Shown: positions 5,457-46,535 of the stretch, in pieces
Layout: each line of letters begins with the position of its first letter
Numbering within the stretch: position 1 is the first letter of the stretch
Source of the DNA: Myxococcales bacterium
GTDB taxonomy: Bacteria; Myxococcota_A; Polyangia; Nannocystales; Nannocystaceae
NCBI GenBank assembly: GCA_014240065.1
Contig: JAAZXR010000014.1
Span: forward strand, 36,863-83,397
Length of the DNA: 46,535 nt
Reading direction: 5' to 3'
The notes under the pieces: generated by a model
What the model was told of the DNA's origin: nothing
What the model saw: only the letters and a program-made list of their open reading frames with translations
Database searches by the model: none
Translations under genes and position numbers: made by a program

Positions 5457-6194
5457 ATGCGTTCACGTAATCTCTCTCAAATCGGTCTTGCCACGCTCGC
5501 GAGCGTTGGCTTCTTGTCAGCGCAAATTCCGGTGGCACACGCCCACGCCTTCGAGCCCGCTCCGGCAGAGGAGCCCGCTCCGGCAGAGGAGCCCGCTCCG
5601 GCAGAAGAAGCGGCGCCGGCAGAGGAAGCGGCGCCGGCAGAGGAAGCGGCCGGCGAAGAAGCGGCCGGCGAAGAAGCGGCCGGCGAAGAAGCGGCCGGAG
5701 AGGAAGCGGCCGGGGAAGAAGCGGCGCCGGCAGAGGAAGCGGCCGGCGAGGAAGCGGCCGGCGAGGAAGCGGCCGGAGAAGAAGCGGCCGGAGAAGAAGC
5801 GGCCGGAGATGAAGACGACGCGGGAGATGACGCGTTGTTGGCGGAGGCGACCACCCCCGATGATTTTTCACTCGATGACGGCGCCCCGAAGCGCACGGGC
5901 AAAGGGATGCTCATCGCCGGAGGTAGCGCCCTGGGCTTGGGAGCGATCCTCGCGGGGATCACCTTTCCAGTGACCCAGTGTCCGGTCGAGGGCGAGAGCT
6001 GCAAAGCAGGCGAGCAGCGTGAACTGTTTTTGGCGAGCGCCGTCGCGGTGGGGACGCTCGGAGCGATCTTGTTGACCGCGGGGTTGGTGACGAGGCTCAA
6101 GTCGAAGCGCTCGGAGACGGAGAAAGCCTCCGCTATCCTGGCGCCGACGTGGATGCCTTCTGGCGCTGGGTTCGCGGCCGTCGGCCGATTCTAG
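5457..6194 (+). CDS. Exported/membrane protein with Ala-Glu repeat linker
   Basis: A 245-residue protein. Residues 1-31 are a signal peptide (basic MRSRN, hydrophobic core, cleavage near VAHAHA). A long Ala/Glu/Pro/Gly low-complexity stretch follows, built first from six-residue EPAPAE/EAAPAE units and then from five-residue GEEAA units, and next an acidic spacer. Two hydrophobic segments (MLIAGGSALGLGAILAGITF and FLASAVAVGTLGAILLTAGLV) flank a loop with two cysteines, and a short basic tail ends the chain. This is a common myxobacterial layout of an envelope protein whose repeat linker may cross the periplasm or peptidoglycan. GGAG lies 5 nt before the ATG. The function is unknown. Confidence 0.75.
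   Translation: MRSRNLSQIGLATLASVGFLSAQIPVAHAHAFEPAPAEEPAPAEEPAPAEEAAPAEEAAPAEEAAGEEAAGEEAAGEEAAGEEAAGEEAAPAEEAAGEEAAGEEAAGEEAAGEEAAGDEDDAGDDALLAEATTPDDFSLDDGAPKRTGKGMLIAGGSALGLGAILAGITFPVTQCPVEGESCKAGEQRELFLASAVAVGTLGAILLTAGLVTRLKSKRSETEKASAILAPTWMPSGAGFAAVGRF
5553..5810. repeat. In-frame tandem repeats, 18-bp then 15-bp units
   Basis: About five 18-bp units (GAGCCCGCTCCGGCAGAG and variants) are followed by a run of 15-bp units of the GAAGCGGCCGGCGAA type, interrupted once by an 18-bp unit. All are multiples of three, so copy-number change would lengthen or shorten the Ala-Glu linker without a frameshift. Confidence 0.9.
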
Positions 6195-13739: not shown

Positions 13740-14908
<1,169 letters not shown>

Positions 14909-15044: not shown

Positions 15045-18000
15045 TTATCGCCGCTCAGCGATCCATGCGCGTACGGCGCTTCGGGTCGAGTTCGAGGGCC
15101 CCGCGGTGCGCGCTGCCAGGGCGCGTGCAGCTCGCTCGGCGAGCGCCATGGCCTTCACCTTGTCGCCGCCGCTTCGCCACAGCGCGCGCGCGTAGGTAAA
15201 ATCGGTCTCAGCCTTGAACGCGGGATCGACGGCCACATCGGTCCACAAGGCCTCGGCACGTTCGACCGCAAGCGCCGACTCGTGCGCACGATCGAGGGCC
15301 AACAGCGCTCGGGCCATGCCCGTCAAGGGCACGGCGAGGAGGGGATGATCGCTGCCCACCGCTGGTTCGGCCAGGCTGAGCACGCGACGATACGCGGCCA
15401 GCGATTCGCGGGGTCGCTCAAGTCTCGCGAGCACACGGGCGCGCTGGCTGAGCGGCGCTGCGAGGGCGGGGTGTTCGGCGCCGTGCGAGGTCTCCACGAT
15501 CGTCATCGCGGTGTCCATGATCTCCAGCGCGTGATCGTGCTCGCCACGGGCGCACGCGAGCTCGGCGGCGATGATTTTGATGTCCACGAGGGCCATGCCC
15601 GAGAGTCCATTTTCCGCGAGGAGCGTCTTTGCCCCGTCGTAGTCACCGAGGGCCGTCGCCGCGTCGGCGGCGATACCACGAAGCCAGGCGCGGTCTCCTC
15701 TCATGGCGAAGGAGGCGTCCCCCATGTCATCGAGGGCTCGTCGCGCGAGTTCGAATCCGGCCGAGTATTCGCCTTGGTCGCGCAGGTGCTGGGCGAGGTT
15801 CCCGCGGCACCGGATGACCAGCGGGTGATGAGGGCCGTGGGCGTCGTGGAGGATCTCGAGCGCGCGAGTGAAGGTGTCGCGGGCGTCGTTGTAGCGGCCG
15901 GCGCTGCGCATCAACAGCCCATGATTCATCAACGTCACGCCAACTTCGGGGTGGCGTGGTCCATAGTCGAGCTCGGCCATCTCGAGCGATCGCTCCAGCG
16001 CGTGGGAGGCGTCCGAGAGCCTGCCGATCTGTTGATAAAGCAGCCCCAAGTTGTTGGCGATGGCCATACGCTGGCCGCGGCCAGCTTCACCTCTCGCGGC
16101 GGCCAGCTCGTCGGCGCGCCCAAAGTGCGCGAGGGCCTTGGAGACCTCCCCGCGTTGGGAGGCGATCGAGCCCAGGCCGTTGTGCAGCTCGATCGTCAGC
16201 GCGTCGTCTCCCCCCACCGCCGCGATGGACGCGCGAGCCCGCCGCGCCCATTCGTCGATCTCTTCGGGGTCCGAATCTGCGGATGCCGCGAGCAAGACCA
16301 AGGACACCGCCGCGCCAGCCACCGCCCACTCTTGCGTCCCCCCGCCGCCAAGATCGAGGGCCTTTTGCAGGTTGTCGTTCGCCGCATCGAGCGCGCCCGC
16401 TTCGTATTGTAGCCGACCAAGCGCCACCCGAGTCTCCGCCTCAAGCCCCTCGTCGTCGGCCCTCACAGCGAGGCGCATCGCTCGCTGTGCGGCGTCGACG
16501 GCGTCTCCGTAGCGGCCGCTGATCTTGGCTGAGGAGGCCTCGGAGAGCAGGCTCCCGATCTGCTTGGCTTCGGTAGAGAGCGGACCGCGCGCGGGATTCT
16601 TCGCCAAGCAACGACCGACGGGCGGCAGGCCGCGGAGGCTCTGCACGGCGCCGCGCACCGTGGGTGCGTCCGCGGCCGCGAATCGCGAGATGAGCGCTCG
16701 CATCTCCGTGAGCCGCCACTCGAGACACAAGAGCCGCTCGAGGCGTTCGGGGGAGCTTCGCGAGCTGCTGTCGTCACACGCGGCCTCGTGCATCTTCGAC
16801 CAATCCGTTGTGTAGCGCTCCATATGCGCGCGCACAAACCTCCACGCGTCGTCGGCGAAGGGTTGGTCGGTGGCCTCGAACGCGGCGCGCACCCGCTGTT
16901 GTTGCTCCTCATTCCAGCTCGAACCCAGCGCGGCGCGGCCGTCCTCGCACGTTCGATCTTCGCGGGTCGTGGAGACGTAGATCAACGCCGCCACCAACGG
17001 CGCGACGATTCCAGTGAATCCGATGGTGAGCGCCCGGCGGCGCTTGGCCCGGGCCGCCGTCTCGAGCGCCCTCAAGAGCGCGGCCATGGTCGCGAACCGA
17101 TCGGTTGGATTTGGCGACAGGCCCCGTCGCAGCGCCGTGTCTAGGTGATGGGGCAACGCCGGAGCGGCCGTCGTGAGGTGCCCCTCCACCACCGCGGTCT
17201 TGAGCGTCTCGAGGTTGTCCGCGGTGAACGGTCGCGCGCCGCACAGCGCCTCCCACAAGGTGACGCAGAAACTAAATTGATCGCTCCGGGCGTCCGCGGC
17301 CCGGGCGAGATGCTGTTCTGGCGCCATGTACGCGGGCGTGCCCATCACGGCGCCCACCCGGGTCAAGCCTTGCCTGCGCAGGGGGTCGGCGCCCTCGGCG
17401 TCTGATGGCAGACTCGCGGGGCCGTCCGATGGGACCGCGAGCTCGGGAGGCTCGAAGGCCTCGACGTCGCGGGCGAGGCCGAAGTCCACCACGCGCGGTC
17501 GTCCATCACTCCCCACCAGGAGATTCGCGGGCTTGAAGTCGCGGTGCACGAGCCCCCGCTCGTGGGCGGCGTGCAGACCACGTCCCGCCGCCATGAGGAC
17601 GCTGAGAATCTCCGCGCGTGATGGCTGCGTGAACCGCAGCCATTCGTCGAGGGTGTGGCCCTCGACCAGCTCCATCACGACGAAGATTCCGGGGCCGTCT
17701 CGGGCGTCGTCGTCTGGAGGACGCACGGGCTCGTGAGCCCCGACGTCGTAGACCGCGACGACGTTGGGGTGGGACAAACGGGCGAGGATTCGGCCCTCTC
17801 GAATCAGGCGCGCGCGCTGTTCTTGGGCGCGGTCGGTGTCGGGTGTCGGATGCAAGAACTTAACCGCGACCCGTCGATCGAGCTCCGGGTCGTAGGCGGC
17901 GTATACGGAGCCAGTGCCCCCCGCACCGAGTCGCTCTGCCAACACATAGCGCGACATGAGCACTTGTTTTGCGGGCGTGCCAAACAGCTGCCCCAACACG

Positions 18001-18119
18001 GAGGACATGGCGCGCCGCTCCTCCACCGGGTCACCCGAGGCCTCGTCCGCCGCCGTGCGCAACCTAGCGCCAACGTCCGCGTCTTGAGGGTCATCATCCT
18101 CACGGCTCGAGGGAACCAC
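15045..18119 (-). CDS. Ser/Thr protein kinase with TM segment and TPR domain
   Basis: A 1024-residue Hanks-type kinase. Residues 58-350 hold the kinase domain: G-loop LGAGGTGSVY (64-73), K87 in VAVKFL, HRDFKPAN with catalytic D194, DFG at 212-214 and MGTPAYMAPEQ. Residues 363-383 are a single membrane segment (LTIGFTGIVAPLVAALIYVS), and residues 480-1000 contain many TPR-like helical pairs (for example LGLLYQQIGRLSDASHALERSLEMAE). The TPRs would lie outside the cytoplasm and could sense a ligand or partner. Start is GTG at 18119, with TACCGT 6 nt upstream. It is divergent from an ECF sigma factor gene 80 bases away; paired kinases of this type are known to phosphorylate ECF factors in other bacteria. 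Confidence 0.93.
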   Translation of the reverse strand: MVPSSREDDDPQDADVGARLRTAADEASGDPVEERRAMSSVLGQLFGTPAKQVLMSRYVLAERLGAGGTGSVYAAYDPELDRRVAVKFLHPTPDTDRAQEQRARLIREGRILARLSHPNVVAVYDVGAHEPVRPPDDDARDGPGIFVVMELVEGHTLDEWLRFTQPSRAEILSVLMAAGRGLHAAHERGLVHRDFKPANLLVGSDGRPRVVDFGLARDVEAFEPPELAVPSDGPASLPSDAEGADPLRRQGLTRVGAVMGTPAYMAPEQHLARAADARSDQFSFCVTLWEALCGARPFTADNLETLKTAVVEGHLTTAAPALPHHLDTALRRGLSPNPTDRFATMAALLRALETAARAKRRRALTIGFTGIVAPLVAALIYVSTTREDRTCEDGRAALGSSWNEEQQQRVRAAFEATDQPFADDAWRFVRAHMERYTTDWSKMHEAACDDSSSRSSPERLERLLCLEWRLTEMRALISRFAAADAPTVRGAVQSLRGLPPVGRCLAKNPARGPLSTEAKQIGSLLSEASSAKISGRYGDAVDAAQRAMRLAVRADDEGLEAETRVALGRLQYEAGALDAANDNLQKALDLGGGGTQEWAVAGAAVSLVLLAASADSDPEEIDEWARRARASIAAVGGDDALTIELHNGLGSIASQRGEVSKALAHFGRADELAAARGEAGRGQRMAIANNLGLLYQQIGRLSDASHALERSLEMAELDYGPRHPEVGVTLMNHGLLMRSAGRYNDARDTFTRALEILHDAHGPHHPLVIRCRGNLAQHLRDQGEYSAGFELARRALDDMGDASFAMRGDRAWLRGIAADAATALGDYDGAKTLLAENGLSGMALVDIKIIAAELACARGEHDHALEIMDTAMTIVETSHGAEHPALAAPLSQRARVLARLERPRESLAAYRRVLSLAEPAVGSDHPLLAVPLTGMARALLALDRAHESALAVERAEALWTDVAVDPAFKAETDFTYARALWRSGGDKVKAMALAERAARALAARTAGPSNSTRSAVRAWIAERR

Positions 18120-18125
18120 ATGCTC

Positions 18126-18131
18126 ACGGTA
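18126..18131 (-). promoter_or_regulatory. Putative -10 (TACCGT) of the kinase gene
   Basis: TACCGT ends 6 nt before the GTG at 18119 on the minus strand. Confidence 0.4.
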
Positions 18132-18147
18132 GCACGCCCACGTGTCG

Positions 18148-18167
18148 CGGCGCGGTCGGCCGCGCCG
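18148..18167. promoter_or_regulatory. 8-bp inverted repeat between kinase and ECF genes
   Basis: CGGCGCGG, loop TCGG, CCGCGCCG form a perfect hairpin or operator in the middle of the 80-base divergent promoter region. It could bind a dimeric regulator acting on both genes. TACATAT follows at 18187 near the GTG of the sigma factor gene. Confidence 0.45.
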
Positions 18168-18199
18168 GAGGCCGTAGATCCCATGTTACATATGAAGGG

Positions 18200-18853
18200 G
18201 TGGCTCCTTCTCCCCCGCACGACGAGGACTCCGATCTTGAGGATCGACGATTGCTCGACGCTTGGGGTGGTGGAGATGAGGCGGCCGGCGCGACCCTCGT
18301 CGCTCGGCACTTTCGTCGGGTCTTTCGTTTTTTCCGCGGCAAGGTCGCGAGCGACGCTGAAGACCTGACGCAGCGGTGCTTCATGGCCTGCGTGGAGCAG
18401 CGCGAGCGCATGCCCAACGAGGCGCGATTCCGGGCCTACCTGATGGGCATCTGCTACAAACAGCTGTTGATGTTTCTGCGCAGCAAGGGGCGCCACGACC
18501 GAAAACACGAGGACTTCTCGCGCATGTCGATCGAGGAGATGACGCGTTCGCCGAGTCGCGTCGTCGCGGCGCGTGAGGAGCAACGCCTGTTGCTCACGGC
18601 GCTGCGCCGTATCCCAGTGGAGCTGCAGGTCGTGATCGAGTTGCTTTATTGGGAGGAGATGACCGTGGTCGAAATTGGCGAAGCCCTCGGGATCCCTTCG
18701 GGGACCGTAAAATCGAGGCTTCACCGCGCGCGAGGCCTGCTTCGCGGGCGCATTGAGGAGGCGGCTGAATCCTTGGCTGTGGCGGCGAGTACCATCGACA
18801 ACCTCGAACGGTGGGCGCGCGAGCTTCGGGAGATGTTGCCCGAGAAGGTCTGA
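18200..18853 (+). CDS. ECF-type RNA polymerase sigma factor
   Basis: A 217-residue group IV sigma factor. Region 2 spans residues 30-100 (ARHFRRVFRFFRGKV, DAEDLTQRCFMACVEQ, FRAYLMGICYKQLLMFLR) and region 4 spans 135-185 (RIPVELQVVIELLYWEEMTVVEIGEALGIPSGTVKSRLHRARGLL). A short C-terminal tail follows. No anti-sigma factor is adjacent; instead the divergent neighbour is a transmembrane Ser/Thr kinase, which fits sigma factors controlled by phosphorylation, such as the ECF43 factor EcfP of Vibrio parahaemolyticus. Whether this protein belongs to that group cannot be told here. GTG at 18200 is the only plausible start; TACATAT lies about 7 nt upstream. Confidence 0.93.
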   Translation: MAPSPPHDEDSDLEDRRLLDAWGGGDEAAGATLVARHFRRVFRFFRGKVASDAEDLTQRCFMACVEQRERMPNEARFRAYLMGICYKQLLMFLRSKGRHDRKHEDFSRMSIEEMTRSPSRVVAAREEQRLLLTALRRIPVELQVVIELLYWEEMTVVEIGEALGIPSGTVKSRLHRARGLLRGRIEEAAESLAVAASTIDNLERWARELREMLPEKV

Positions 18854-19076: not shown

Positions 19077-19574
19077 TCACGGCAGAGGCCGCAGGGTAGT
19101 CTCTCCCTTAAGGGACAAATAGGGCCGCATCTTCGCGAAGGTCTTTCTCCCGATCCCCTTGACGCGCAAGAGGTGGAGGGGGTCGCTGAAGTCCCGCTTT
19201 TCGCGGTACGCGAGGATTCGACCGGCGATGGCCGGCCCCACGCCGGGCAAGAGCTGCCACTGGGTGGAGCTCGCCGTGTTGATATTGAGCTGCCCCTGGA
19301 GGCGAGGCGCAGGCGGCTCCTTCGCGGTCGGTTCGTCGTCGCTGAGGACCAGAGGGTTCGCGCGGCTCAGGTGCGTGAGCTTGAATTGGGCGCTCCCGCG
19401 CCTGAGATCGCGGAGATCTTCGACGTGGGCCGCGAGCGCGTCCCCGCCCCCCGCTGACAGGGCGTGCGCGCCCGCGTGGACGCCGGCGTGCGCGTCTGAG
19501 TGGGAGGGGATGACGGCGGTGGCGCCTGCGAGGGCGAGCACCGAGGTGAGAAGATACGTTGTGATTTTTTTCAT
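19077..19574 (-). CDS. Exported ComEA-like helix-hairpin-helix protein
   Basis: A 165-residue protein. Residues 1-28 form a signal peptide (MKKITTYLLTSVLALAGATA), followed by a His/Ala-rich stretch with HAGVHAGAHA that might bind metal. Residues 95-155 are two helix-hairpin-helix motifs of the ComEA type: INTASSTQWQLLPGVGPAIA and LLRVKGIGRKTFAKMRPYL. ComEA proteins bind incoming double-stranded DNA in the periplasm during natural transformation; HhH proteins of this kind are also seen in other exported DNA-binding roles. AAGGAA lies 9 nt before the ATG. No other competence gene is adjacent. Confidence 0.85.
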   Translation of the reverse strand: MKKITTYLLTSVLALAGATAVIPSHSDAHAGVHAGAHALSAGGGDALAAHVEDLRDLRRGSAQFKLTHLSRANPLVLSDDEPTAKEPPAPRLQGQLNINTASSTQWQLLPGVGPAIAGRILAYREKRDFSDPLHLLRVKGIGRKTFAKMRPYLSLKGETTLRPLP

Positions 19575-19835: not shown

Positions 19836-20369
19836 CTAGCTGGCCGGATCGGGCATGCAAATTTTTCCCGACAACAACTTCGACGGGTTGTCCGGGTTGG
19901 GTGAGACGTACACGCCGCCGCTCCCCGTGGCTCGACACTCGTAACCACCGCGACAATCCGAGTCCTTCTTGCACTTGAGACGGCAGCTCGTGCGCACGCT
20001 CAAGATGTAGCCGCACAGCCCCTCGGGGAGGCAGAGCTCGTCGGCCGCGCACAGGTCGAGCGGCGGCAGCGCGGAACCATCTTGAGCCTCGCTCCACGTG
20101 TCCTCCCGCGCAGGGTCACACGCGACCGTCAAGAATGCCGAGCCGTACGCGGCGACGCAGGTCCCCTCGGAGGGGCAGGTTCCGTACGCGCAATTTTCGA
20201 TGGTGCACTCCCCTTCCCCGCTGGGGTCGAACGGGGCGTTGGAGAGATCACACTGGCGCTCTCCACGGATGCTGCAGTCCACGGCGCGCACGCAGGGATC
20301 GCCAATTTTTGGCTGACACGCCGCGAGGGCGAGGGCGAATGGCACGAGGGCGAGGCGACGGAGGAACAC
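19836..20369 (-). CDS. Cys-rich lipoprotein
   Basis: A 177-residue predicted lipoprotein: MFLRRLALVPFALALAAC gives the signal peptide and lipobox (C18). The mature part holds about 15 cysteines in short loops (GDPCVRAVDCSI, ENCAYGTCPSEGTC, DLCAADELCLPEGLCG, CRLKCKKDSDCRGGYECR), a pattern common in surface lipoproteins of myxobacteria and resembling small disulfide-knotted modules of animal secreted proteins. The function is unknown. The frame is open far upstream over the opposite gene, but the GTG at 20369 is the start: it directly precedes the signal peptide and has TAGGCT 8 nt upstream. Confidence 0.8.
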   Translation of the reverse strand: MFLRRLALVPFALALAACQPKIGDPCVRAVDCSIRGERQCDLSNAPFDPSGEGECTIENCAYGTCPSEGTCVAAYGSAFLTVACDPAREDTWSEAQDGSALPPLDLCAADELCLPEGLCGYILSVRTSCRLKCKKDSDCRGGYECRATGSGGVYVSPNPDNPSKLLSGKICMPDPAS

Positions 20370-20417: not shown

Positions 20418-21785
20418 GTGGCAGGCTCCACTGAGGTGGATCTCGACGAACTCATGGCCCGCTTGACGGCGCTCGCCAAGGCCCAGGCGTCCTCCGGCGA
20501 GGCGGGCTCCGAGGACGGGGCCGGCGGGAACTTTGACTGCGTCGGCTGCGAGGGCTGCCGTCGGTGTCGATTTTGTGCCGCGTGCAGCGATTGTGAGGAC
20601 TGCACCTACTGCGAAGAGTGCGTCGAGTGCGTGTCGTGCACACACGCGGTGCGGAGCGTGGAGTGTGGCGACTCGAGCCACCTTCGCGACTGTCGCGGCT
20701 GCGAAGACAGCCGCTACTTGCTGCTGTGCGTCGAGTGCGTGTCTTGTACCTACTGCCTCGGGTGCGTCGGACTCGAGGGTGAGGAATTCCACGTGCTCAA
20801 CGAGTCGGTCTCGCGCAGCCAGTATTTCAAGCTCGTGAAGGCCTTGAGCATCGAGATGGAGGTGCGAACCCACCTCGGGTGGAGACCCGCTGTGATCGGG
20901 CTCGAACCGGCGGAGCGCGACCCCGCGTGGGGCGACGGGGCGCAGGCTGACGAAGGAGATGGGGAGCTTCGCGCGGCGACGGAGCCGATCCACGAGATCC
21001 CAGAAGACACCTCGGGGCTCGCTGCGCAGGCCGGGGGTGGCCTCGCGGGCCCGGGGTCGCAGCGGGGCCGAGGCGTCACGCACGATTCACGTTCGGCGGC
21101 TGCCGCTCACCGCGGTGAAGAAGATGAGAGGCGGTCGTTTACGGGATTTGAAGATCCGCCGACGCCGAGCGCCTCGTCCGCTGTCGGGAGGTCCGGGTGG
21201 ATCTCGGCCATCGCCGACGCGACGGGTGGCGCCGACGAAGACGACCCGATCACAGATTCCTCGCTGCCGGAGGTGACCCACACTCGCCTCATCGAGCCCA
21301 CCGATCCACGGGCTTCGATTGGGTCGCCCGAATCCAAGGGCCCGGAGCATCTGAGCCTCGACGCGCTCGATGCTGAGGGCGCTGGTGACGAGGCGTCCAA
21401 GCGGCCACCCACCCTCTCCTCGCAGAGGCTTGGAGAGGCTGTGAGCCGTTCGGTGCGTGGGCGCGGCGAGCGACGCCGCTCGGGAGACGGGGAAGGGCTC
21501 GATCCGCTCGGCGCGCTCGGGGAGGGCGGAGCGCCACGCAGCACGCTCTCGAAGCTCCGCGCAGGCGCGCGCGGGCCTTCGACCGCGACCGACCAACGAG
21601 TCGAGACCTCGTCGGAGGAGGAGCCGCCTCGTTCCTTGTTTGATCCAGTGTCTGCCCCCTCGGCGCCGCGCAAGGGCGACGCGAACGAAAACAGCGAGTC
21701 TTCGCGGGCGAGCCTGCGGCGCGGTCGAAGGCCCGTGCGGCGTGGGCGGCCCCCGAGCGACGATGACGATCCAGCGAAGGACTGA
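20418..21785 (+). CDS. Protein with cysteine at every third residue, disordered tail
   Basis: A 455-residue protein with no signal peptide. After a short helix, residues 41-116 contain 20 cysteines, all in one three-residue register: C41, C44 and so on to C74 are twelve in a row (CVGCEGCRRCRFCAACSDC and onward), then C83, C92, C95, C104, C107, C110, C113 and C116. Positions of the register that lack Cys hold Ala, Ser or Leu. A compact alpha/beta-looking segment follows (EFHVLNESVSRSQYFKLVKALSIEMEVR, 123-150), and then about 300 residues rich in Glu, Ser, Arg and Pro that look disordered. The regular spacing suggests a three-sided repeat coil or a metal/cluster-loaded rod. I know no function. 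GTG at 20418; TAGGTC lies 6 nt upstream. Confidence 0.75.
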   Translation: MAGSTEVDLDELMARLTALAKAQASSGEAGSEDGAGGNFDCVGCEGCRRCRFCAACSDCEDCTYCEECVECVSCTHAVRSVECGDSSHLRDCRGCEDSRYLLLCVECVSCTYCLGCVGLEGEEFHVLNESVSRSQYFKLVKALSIEMEVRTHLGWRPAVIGLEPAERDPAWGDGAQADEGDGELRAATEPIHEIPEDTSGLAAQAGGGLAGPGSQRGRGVTHDSRSAAAAHRGEEDERRSFTGFEDPPTPSASSAVGRSGWISAIADATGGADEDDPITDSSLPEVTHTRLIEPTDPRASIGSPESKGPEHLSLDALDAEGAGDEASKRPPTLSSQRLGEAVSRSVRGRGERRRSGDGEGLDPLGALGEGGAPRSTLSKLRAGARGPSTATDQRVETSSEEEPPRSLFDPVSAPSAPRKGDANENSESSRASLRRGRRPVRRGRPPSDDDDPAKD

Positions 21786-46267: not shown

Positions 46268-46535
46268 ATGAATCGTCGATCGTTAATAGTGCAAGGACTT
46301 TTGGGTGTGGCGCTGGCGGCCGGCGGATGCGCCGACAAGGGTGGGCTCACCGCCGGGGGTGACGGTGACGCTTCTGCTGGCGAGGCCGATTCGACCGGAG
46401 ACGTCGGTGACTCTGATACCAGCGCGAGTGGAGGCGGCACCGAGGAGGGATCGGCGAGCGCGGACGCGGGAGACGGAGACGGAGACGGAGACGGAGACGG
46501 AGACGGGGACGGAGACGGGGACGGGGACGGGGACG
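46268..46535 (+). CDS. Lipoprotein with Gly-Asp repeat (5' part)
   Basis: The first 89 codons of a gene cut by the window end. MNRRSLIVQGLLGVALAAG leads to lipobox AAGGC (C21); then comes GLTAGGDGDASAGEADSTG, an acidic/Ser-rich linker and a Gly-Asp repeat that is still running at 46535. The layout is the same as in the hydrolase lipoprotein at 13733-14908, so a catalytic or binding domain may follow beyond the window. TATGGT at 46210-46215 is a possible -10 with a leader of about 45 nt. Confidence 0.85.
   Translation, partial: MNRRSLIVQGLLGVALAAGGCADKGGLTAGGDGDASAGEADSTGDVGDSDTSASGGGTEEGSASADAGDGDGDGDGDGDGDGDGDGDGD
46475..46535. repeat. GGAGAC/GGGGAC hexamer array
   Basis: Near-perfect hexamers encode (Gly-Asp)n and continue past the window edge. 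Confidence 0.9.

Follow-up and report, generated by a model that had tools for sequence, protein, structure and literature searches.

A conserved, unnamed domain of Myxococcota with cysteine at every third residue

Described proteins with evenly spaced cysteines

The antifreeze proteins of the beetles Tenebrio and Dorcus (TmAFP, PDB 1EZG, InterPro IPR016133) form a 12-residue right-handed beta-helix with the consensus TCTxSxNCxxAx, in which C2 and C8 of each coil are believed to be paired (PMC8038014). They are secreted by means of a signal peptide and bind ice through a Thr-x-Thr array, formed by coil positions 1 and 3. Cysteine at every third residue is also found in the heterocycloanthracin-type bacteriocins (Haft 2009, PMC2674419, TIGR03601). 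These peptides are small and modified, carry a leader and are encoded with a maturation operon; they need a heterocycle-forming system, and their repeats vary by insertions and deletions. An unbroken C-x-x register occurs as well in PHROG_15341 (function unknown), which includes proteins of the Campylobacter T4-like phages CP21 and CP220 and of Vibrio phage 1.238. The relative in Vibrio phage 1.238 has been independently annotated with the insect antifreeze protein entry IPR016133.

Here we describe a real, conserved, unnamed domain with this spacing, encoded in a window of 46,535 nucleotides (the whole stretch of Nannocystaceae DNA that was analysed). It shares with TmAFP a coil of 12 residues, as judged from autocorrelation at 12, 24 and 36 residues, an inward residue at every third position, which is small or uncharged in the myxobacterial domain, and a preference for larger residues at coil positions 2 and 8 and small ones at 5 and 11. 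Unlike TmAFP, it is bacterial, has N- and C-terminal caps and much more cysteine, and lacks both the Thr-x-Thr array and a signal peptide. Nor does its sequence give any sign of a C2-C8 disulfide in each coil, position 2 being Leu or Val in 22% of cases.

The gene, its cysteine register and its inheritance

The gene is present as a single copy in its own genome, and a 93% identical relative is found in another Nannocystaceae MAG. Its parts, in coordinates of the window, are as follows.

20418 to 21785, plus strand: gene of the 455-residue protein, with a GTG start, as given by translation of the frame
20439 to 20489, plus strand: conserved N-terminal helix, residues 8-24 (DLDELMARLTALAKAQA), aligned in all homologues and a helix in the low-confidence AlphaFold model (pLDDT 55-59 there)
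20532 to 20771, plus strand: region of the C-x-x register (residues 39-118), which spans some six and a half 12-residue coils with predicted inward Cys, Ser, Leu or Ala at every third residue
20571 to 20753, plus strand: aromatic/His ladder with one residue per coil (F52, Y64, H76, H88, Y100 and Y112), its spacing continued by F124
20745 to 20792, plus strand: possible local metal site (C110, C113, C116 and H125), proposed from conservation
20766 to 20867, plus strand: conserved C-terminal cap, residues 117-150 (VGLxxxEFHVLN...R..YFKLVKAL)
20913 to 21782, plus strand: low-complexity tail rich in Gly, Ala, Ser and Arg, residues 166-455
21711 to 21743, plus strand: short basic motif SLRRGRRPVRR, residues 432-442, which recurs near the C-terminus of Nannocystaceae homologues

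A first, sequence-only reading had placed twenty cysteines of this protein in one three-residue register between residues 41 and 116, and the translation bears this out. The protein has 20 cysteines in total, every one at 41+3n: twelve in a row (41, 44, ..., 74), as had been stated, and then 83, 92, 95, 104, 107, 110, 113 and 116. The gaps had rightly been given as Ala, Ser or Leu (A77, S80, S86, L89, S98 and L101), and the span was correct save for a trivial offset at its end (residue 116 ends at 20765, against 20767). Simple arithmetic puts the chance that 20 cysteines fall in one of three registers at about (1/3)^19 = 1e-9. Evolutionary conservation is the stronger proof that the register is real, since its 26 positions align without any indel in 64 homologues. 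The three-residue spacing thus survives in 64 of 64 homologues, which agrees with the earlier proposal of a structural repeat that is regular and lines up every third residue. The same conservation of the 455-residue protein led us to reject a spurious open reading frame.

Among the 1664 register cells of these homologues, cysteine makes up 68.5% (1140), serine 17.6% (293) and leucine 7.8% (130), the few others being Val, Thr, Ala, Ile, Gly and Met, with one Asp and one Asn. A single cysteine lies off the register, against the 1140 on it. The in-between positions hold many charged residues. Because the register is essentially never charged (the one Asp and one Asn only), its positions are most likely buried. 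Individual homologues carry 13 to 22 register cysteines, and most positions are replaceable.

Relatives were found in 67 of 284 Myxococcota genomes by a search with the core sequence. A profile built from 15 relatives matched 138 of 373 Myxococcota genomes (completeness at least 90%), always once per genome. Within the Nannocystaceae, the family of the window, there was a match in 28 of 29 genomes and in 18 of the 19 good ones, a few of the matches being short. Many homologues are stand-alone proteins of about 140-190 residues. In a tree of 64 cores the family label changes seven times, which is the minimum of seven, and none of 200 shuffles was as low; the gene of this domain is therefore of old origin and has mostly been passed on vertically. 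The 455-residue protein has no match among Pfam or NCBIfam models. There was no PADLOC match either, and a defence system was rejected on that account.

The bacteriocin precursors deserve consideration at this point, as repeated Cys-Xaa-Xaa units are the mark of the published Bacillus family (PMC2674419). That the protein is the precursor of a heterocyclised Cys-Xaa-Xaa bacteriocin of heterocycloanthracin type has, in our view, a negligible probability. The domain has a fixed length without indels and is inherited vertically across the phylum, whereas in the published bacteriocins Cys-Xaa-Xaa units are gained and lost by insertion and deletion, and there is no NCBIfam match. We rejected the bacteriocin precursor because YcaO is absent from the genome, which is 97.7% complete; the same search was positive in five of 14 controls.

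The neighbours of the gene include proC in Nannocystaceae and, elsewhere, genes for D-Tyr-tRNA deacylase, a MrfA-type helicase, MoCF and Smr proteins. No neighbour is general, and the neighbourhood, which is not conserved beyond families, offers no hint of function. Within the window, a divergent gene for a Cys-rich lipoprotein-like protein (LALAACQPKIGDPCVRAVDCS; 19836-20360, minus strand; no Pfam match) lies directly opposite the start of the 455-residue gene. Further along are a ComEA-like helix-hairpin-helix protein with a signal-like N-terminus (19077-19574, minus strand; PF12836) and a Ser/Thr kinase with TPR repeats that adjoins a divergent sigma-70 family factor (15045-18853). The window also holds repeat arrays: a hexanucleotide array at 14619-14774, which codes for the Gly-Asp-rich linker of an alpha/beta hydrolase lipoprotein, a 15-base tandem repeat of nearly 14 copies at 5553-5814, and an 11-copy GGAGAC hexamer at the window end (46469-46535).

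The twelve-residue period and the role of the cysteines

When the residues between register positions are examined by profile autocorrelation, peaks stand at lags of 12, 24 and 36 residues, with p values of 0.003, 0.0005 and 0.005 from 2000 triplet shuffles, and no other lag up to 36 has a p value below 0.15. By coil position, the register holds Cys or large aliphatics at 2 and 8, and either Cys or Ser at positions 5 and 11; hardly any large residues are seen outside the former pair, and most of the Ser falls on the latter. Given that every third residue is most likely buried and that the surface repeats every 12, a solenoid with four short sides per turn is the best reading, a fold that we infer from these patterns. 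The period also points to four columns directed into the coil, rather than to one face. In a PDB search with the family profile, the top rank was 1EZG (E 0.043, with a large bias term), in the same coil phase, such that the most constant cysteine column of the family falls on C8; this match is weak and driven partly by cysteine composition. AlphaFold gave a pLDDT of 38 for the window protein with one relative, from a shallow alignment, and of 37 for the phage CP21 protein alone, from a single sequence, values too low for a usable model. AlphaFold 2 is, moreover, reported to over-predict beta-solenoids when repeats are perfect (PMC11795689).

PHROG_15341 was matched by profile over residues 39-116, i.e., in the repeat part only (E 1.1e-6, 29 bits). 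The match starts at profile position 43, and the N-terminal part of the phage family (LIDGYYIDSDNNKW...) is absent from the window protein. Repeat number differs among the phage proteins, from 27 register positions in CP220 to 76 in CP21; their repeats are nearly pure cysteine and their termini are different. The Cys-rich phage relatives show neither the C-terminal cap nor the 12-residue period, and the lack of the period counts against the solenoid reading. Phage C-x-x proteins may share the coil but not the caps. A scan of viral contigs with the window protein, the family profile and a degenerate pattern of the C-terminal cap returned no relatives.

Several observations were made on the phage proteins themselves. 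The CP21 protein (L035:2575-3429, L038:4001-4849) has 284 residues, and nearly all of its 76 register positions are cysteine; the 27-position version of CP220 lies between the portal and ligase genes. A protein of another viral contig (L095:3001-3636) is an almost pure Cys-Ser-Gly repeat with the N-terminus of the Vibrio phage 1.238 protein and a different C-terminal part. A match in Flavobacterium phage FL-1 (L036:1966-2310) is a short tandem repeat that reads C-x-x in one frame; it is doubtful as a C-x-x protein because the annotated frame reads AP-V/I repeats.

What the cysteines do can be approached from their changes along the tree, reconstructed by simple parsimony with midpoint rooting and hence approximate. 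There were 160 changes between Cys and other residues, with 119 Cys losses in a two-state count. In a full-state count, 85 of 127 Cys losses (two thirds) occurred without change at either register neighbour. Cysteines at i and i+6, the spacing paired in the beetle protein, changed together once, against 7.1 times expected, and in opposite directions eight times, against 3.2. Register neighbours (i and i+3) changed together 18 times, against 7.7 expected, most often from Cys-Cys to Ser-Leu. This last excess reads as packing compensation in a narrow core, since a large aliphatic residue in the register is mostly preceded by a small one (121 times, against 45 by Cys) and never adjoins another large one; local pairing could explain it too.

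These changes bear on the suggestion that the thiols form a disulfide or metal ladder, which is probably wrong: the register accepts Ser, Leu, Val, Ala and Thr as well as Cys, the Cys losses are solitary in two thirds of cases, the number of cysteines is often odd and pairing at i/i+6 is avoided. A disulfide-laddered solenoid in an oxidising compartment, like that of the Tenebrio antifreeze protein, would agree with the coil length and inward spacing, given the C2-C8 pairing proposed for the beetle protein (PMC8038014). It is nevertheless very improbable. The signal peptide is lacking, as had been noted from the sequence and as is seen in the N-terminus (VAGSTEVDLDELMARL), which has no hydrophobic stretch. 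Of 54 non-redundant homologues, 36 have an odd and 18 an even number of register cysteines (29 are odd when the C-terminal cap is included), and the i/i+6 pairs show the deficit of joint and excess of opposite changes given above.

We also consider it unlikely that the domain is a metallothionein-like rod, in which stacked squares of four cysteines, one per coil, would hold a line of Zn, Cu(I) or Fe-S on the axis. A coil has up to four cysteines, all of them inward, 50 of 64 homologues have CCCC in the last one, and i/i+3 pairs do change together more often than by chance. However, stacked metal sites would hardly tolerate such turnover of cysteine, be it the 119 losses or the 85 of 127 without a neighbouring change. 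Some coils keep only one or two cysteines, position 101 is Leu, Val, Ile or Met in 64 of 64 homologues, and position 98 is Ser in 55 of 64. In a metallothionein-like store, moreover, the number and position of ligand cysteines would be conserved, whereas here the number ranges from 13 to 22 and most of them can be replaced.

We favour a solenoid packed by cysteine. An N-terminal helix would lead into a beta-solenoid of six to seven turns with 12 residues per turn, followed by the C-terminal cap. Its narrow core would be filled by four inward residues per turn, one every third residue. Cysteine would usually take these places, being small and hydrophobic and well tolerated in a reducing cytoplasm, with Ser and Leu as partners where it is replaced; the thiols would then be reduced. 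On balance, sequence patterns make it fairly probable that the domain is a cytoplasmic 12-residue beta-solenoid with a thiol/Ser/Leu core and an aromatic/His ladder outside, the latter as the proposed partner-binding face. There is a small chance that its interior is a channel of free thiols, in a conserved cytoplasmic solenoid of the beetle-antifreeze type whose aromatic ladder binds a dedicated partner. If true, this intracellular fold family would be new and its role in several families of myxobacteria a core one; it might also be a thiol-lined tube in which metal is held, or redox handled, along the axis.

Caps, tail and the aromatic ladder

The repeat had been described as fused to a compact domain and a disordered tail. 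Both are indeed joined to it, but what was called compact is the conserved cap that belongs to the repeat domain itself, with G118 and N128 in 64 of 64 homologues and L127 and F124 in 63. Cysteine-rich zinc-ribbon proteins of CPR bacteria end much alike, in CFGCxxLxxKxYxI(L/F)N, and likewise show a C/S register, which we regard as a lead only. The solenoid end may be closed by a single structural metal site made of C110, C113, C116 and His or Cys at 125, with the other cysteines as core filler. This refinement, which is compatible with the solenoid, is possible but somewhat doubtful. C113 and C116 are found in 64 and C110 in 60 of 64 homologues, and position 125 is His in 55 and Cys in six of the 64, an exchange often seen in zinc ligands; three homologues, however, have Phe, Tyr or Leu there.

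Very long tails are typical of the Nannocystaceae homologues. Variants of the basic motif close disordered tails that are otherwise dissimilar (SLRRGRRPVRR, LRLGRKPKRR, SVLAARRPVRR and SIRRAKRPRR, from the window and the C-termini of L097-L114), sometimes with two motifs per protein. The frequent presence of this motif near the tail end in Nannocystaceae suggests tethering.

The most conserved outward feature is coil position 1, on the side that bears the ice-binding Thr of the beetle protein; it is aromatic or His in 93% of cases (mean entropy 0.86 bits in 64 homologues). F52 is found in 64 and Y64 in 61 of the 64; positions 88 and 112 are H/Y and Y/F. With 0% Thr at coil position 1 and a mixed position 3 with 15% Thr, the ladder cannot be an ice-binding face of the beetle-antifreeze type. 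It is probably this exposed ladder, and not the row of thiols, that forms the working face. We tentatively suggest from its conservation that it might bind a partner: the outward Phe/Tyr/His ladder would then take up some flat ligand, such as a strand of a protein. Of the whole reading, this binding role is the weakest step. Tethered to its disordered tail, whose end region bears the basic motif, the Nannocystaceae form of the domain would act as a scaffold or adaptor.

When a sequence is regular and rich in thiols, disulfides or the storage of metal usually come to mind. In this protein, which lacks an export signal, the pattern of evolution suggests cysteine as the packing residue of a solenoid with a circumference of only 12 residues. 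Whether the thiols or the aromatic face are the working part becomes a directly testable question. The domain is a possible natural template for small reduced solenoids, and, as a single-copy gene of whole myxobacterial families without a Pfam, NCBIfam or PADLOC model, it represents an untouched conserved gene.
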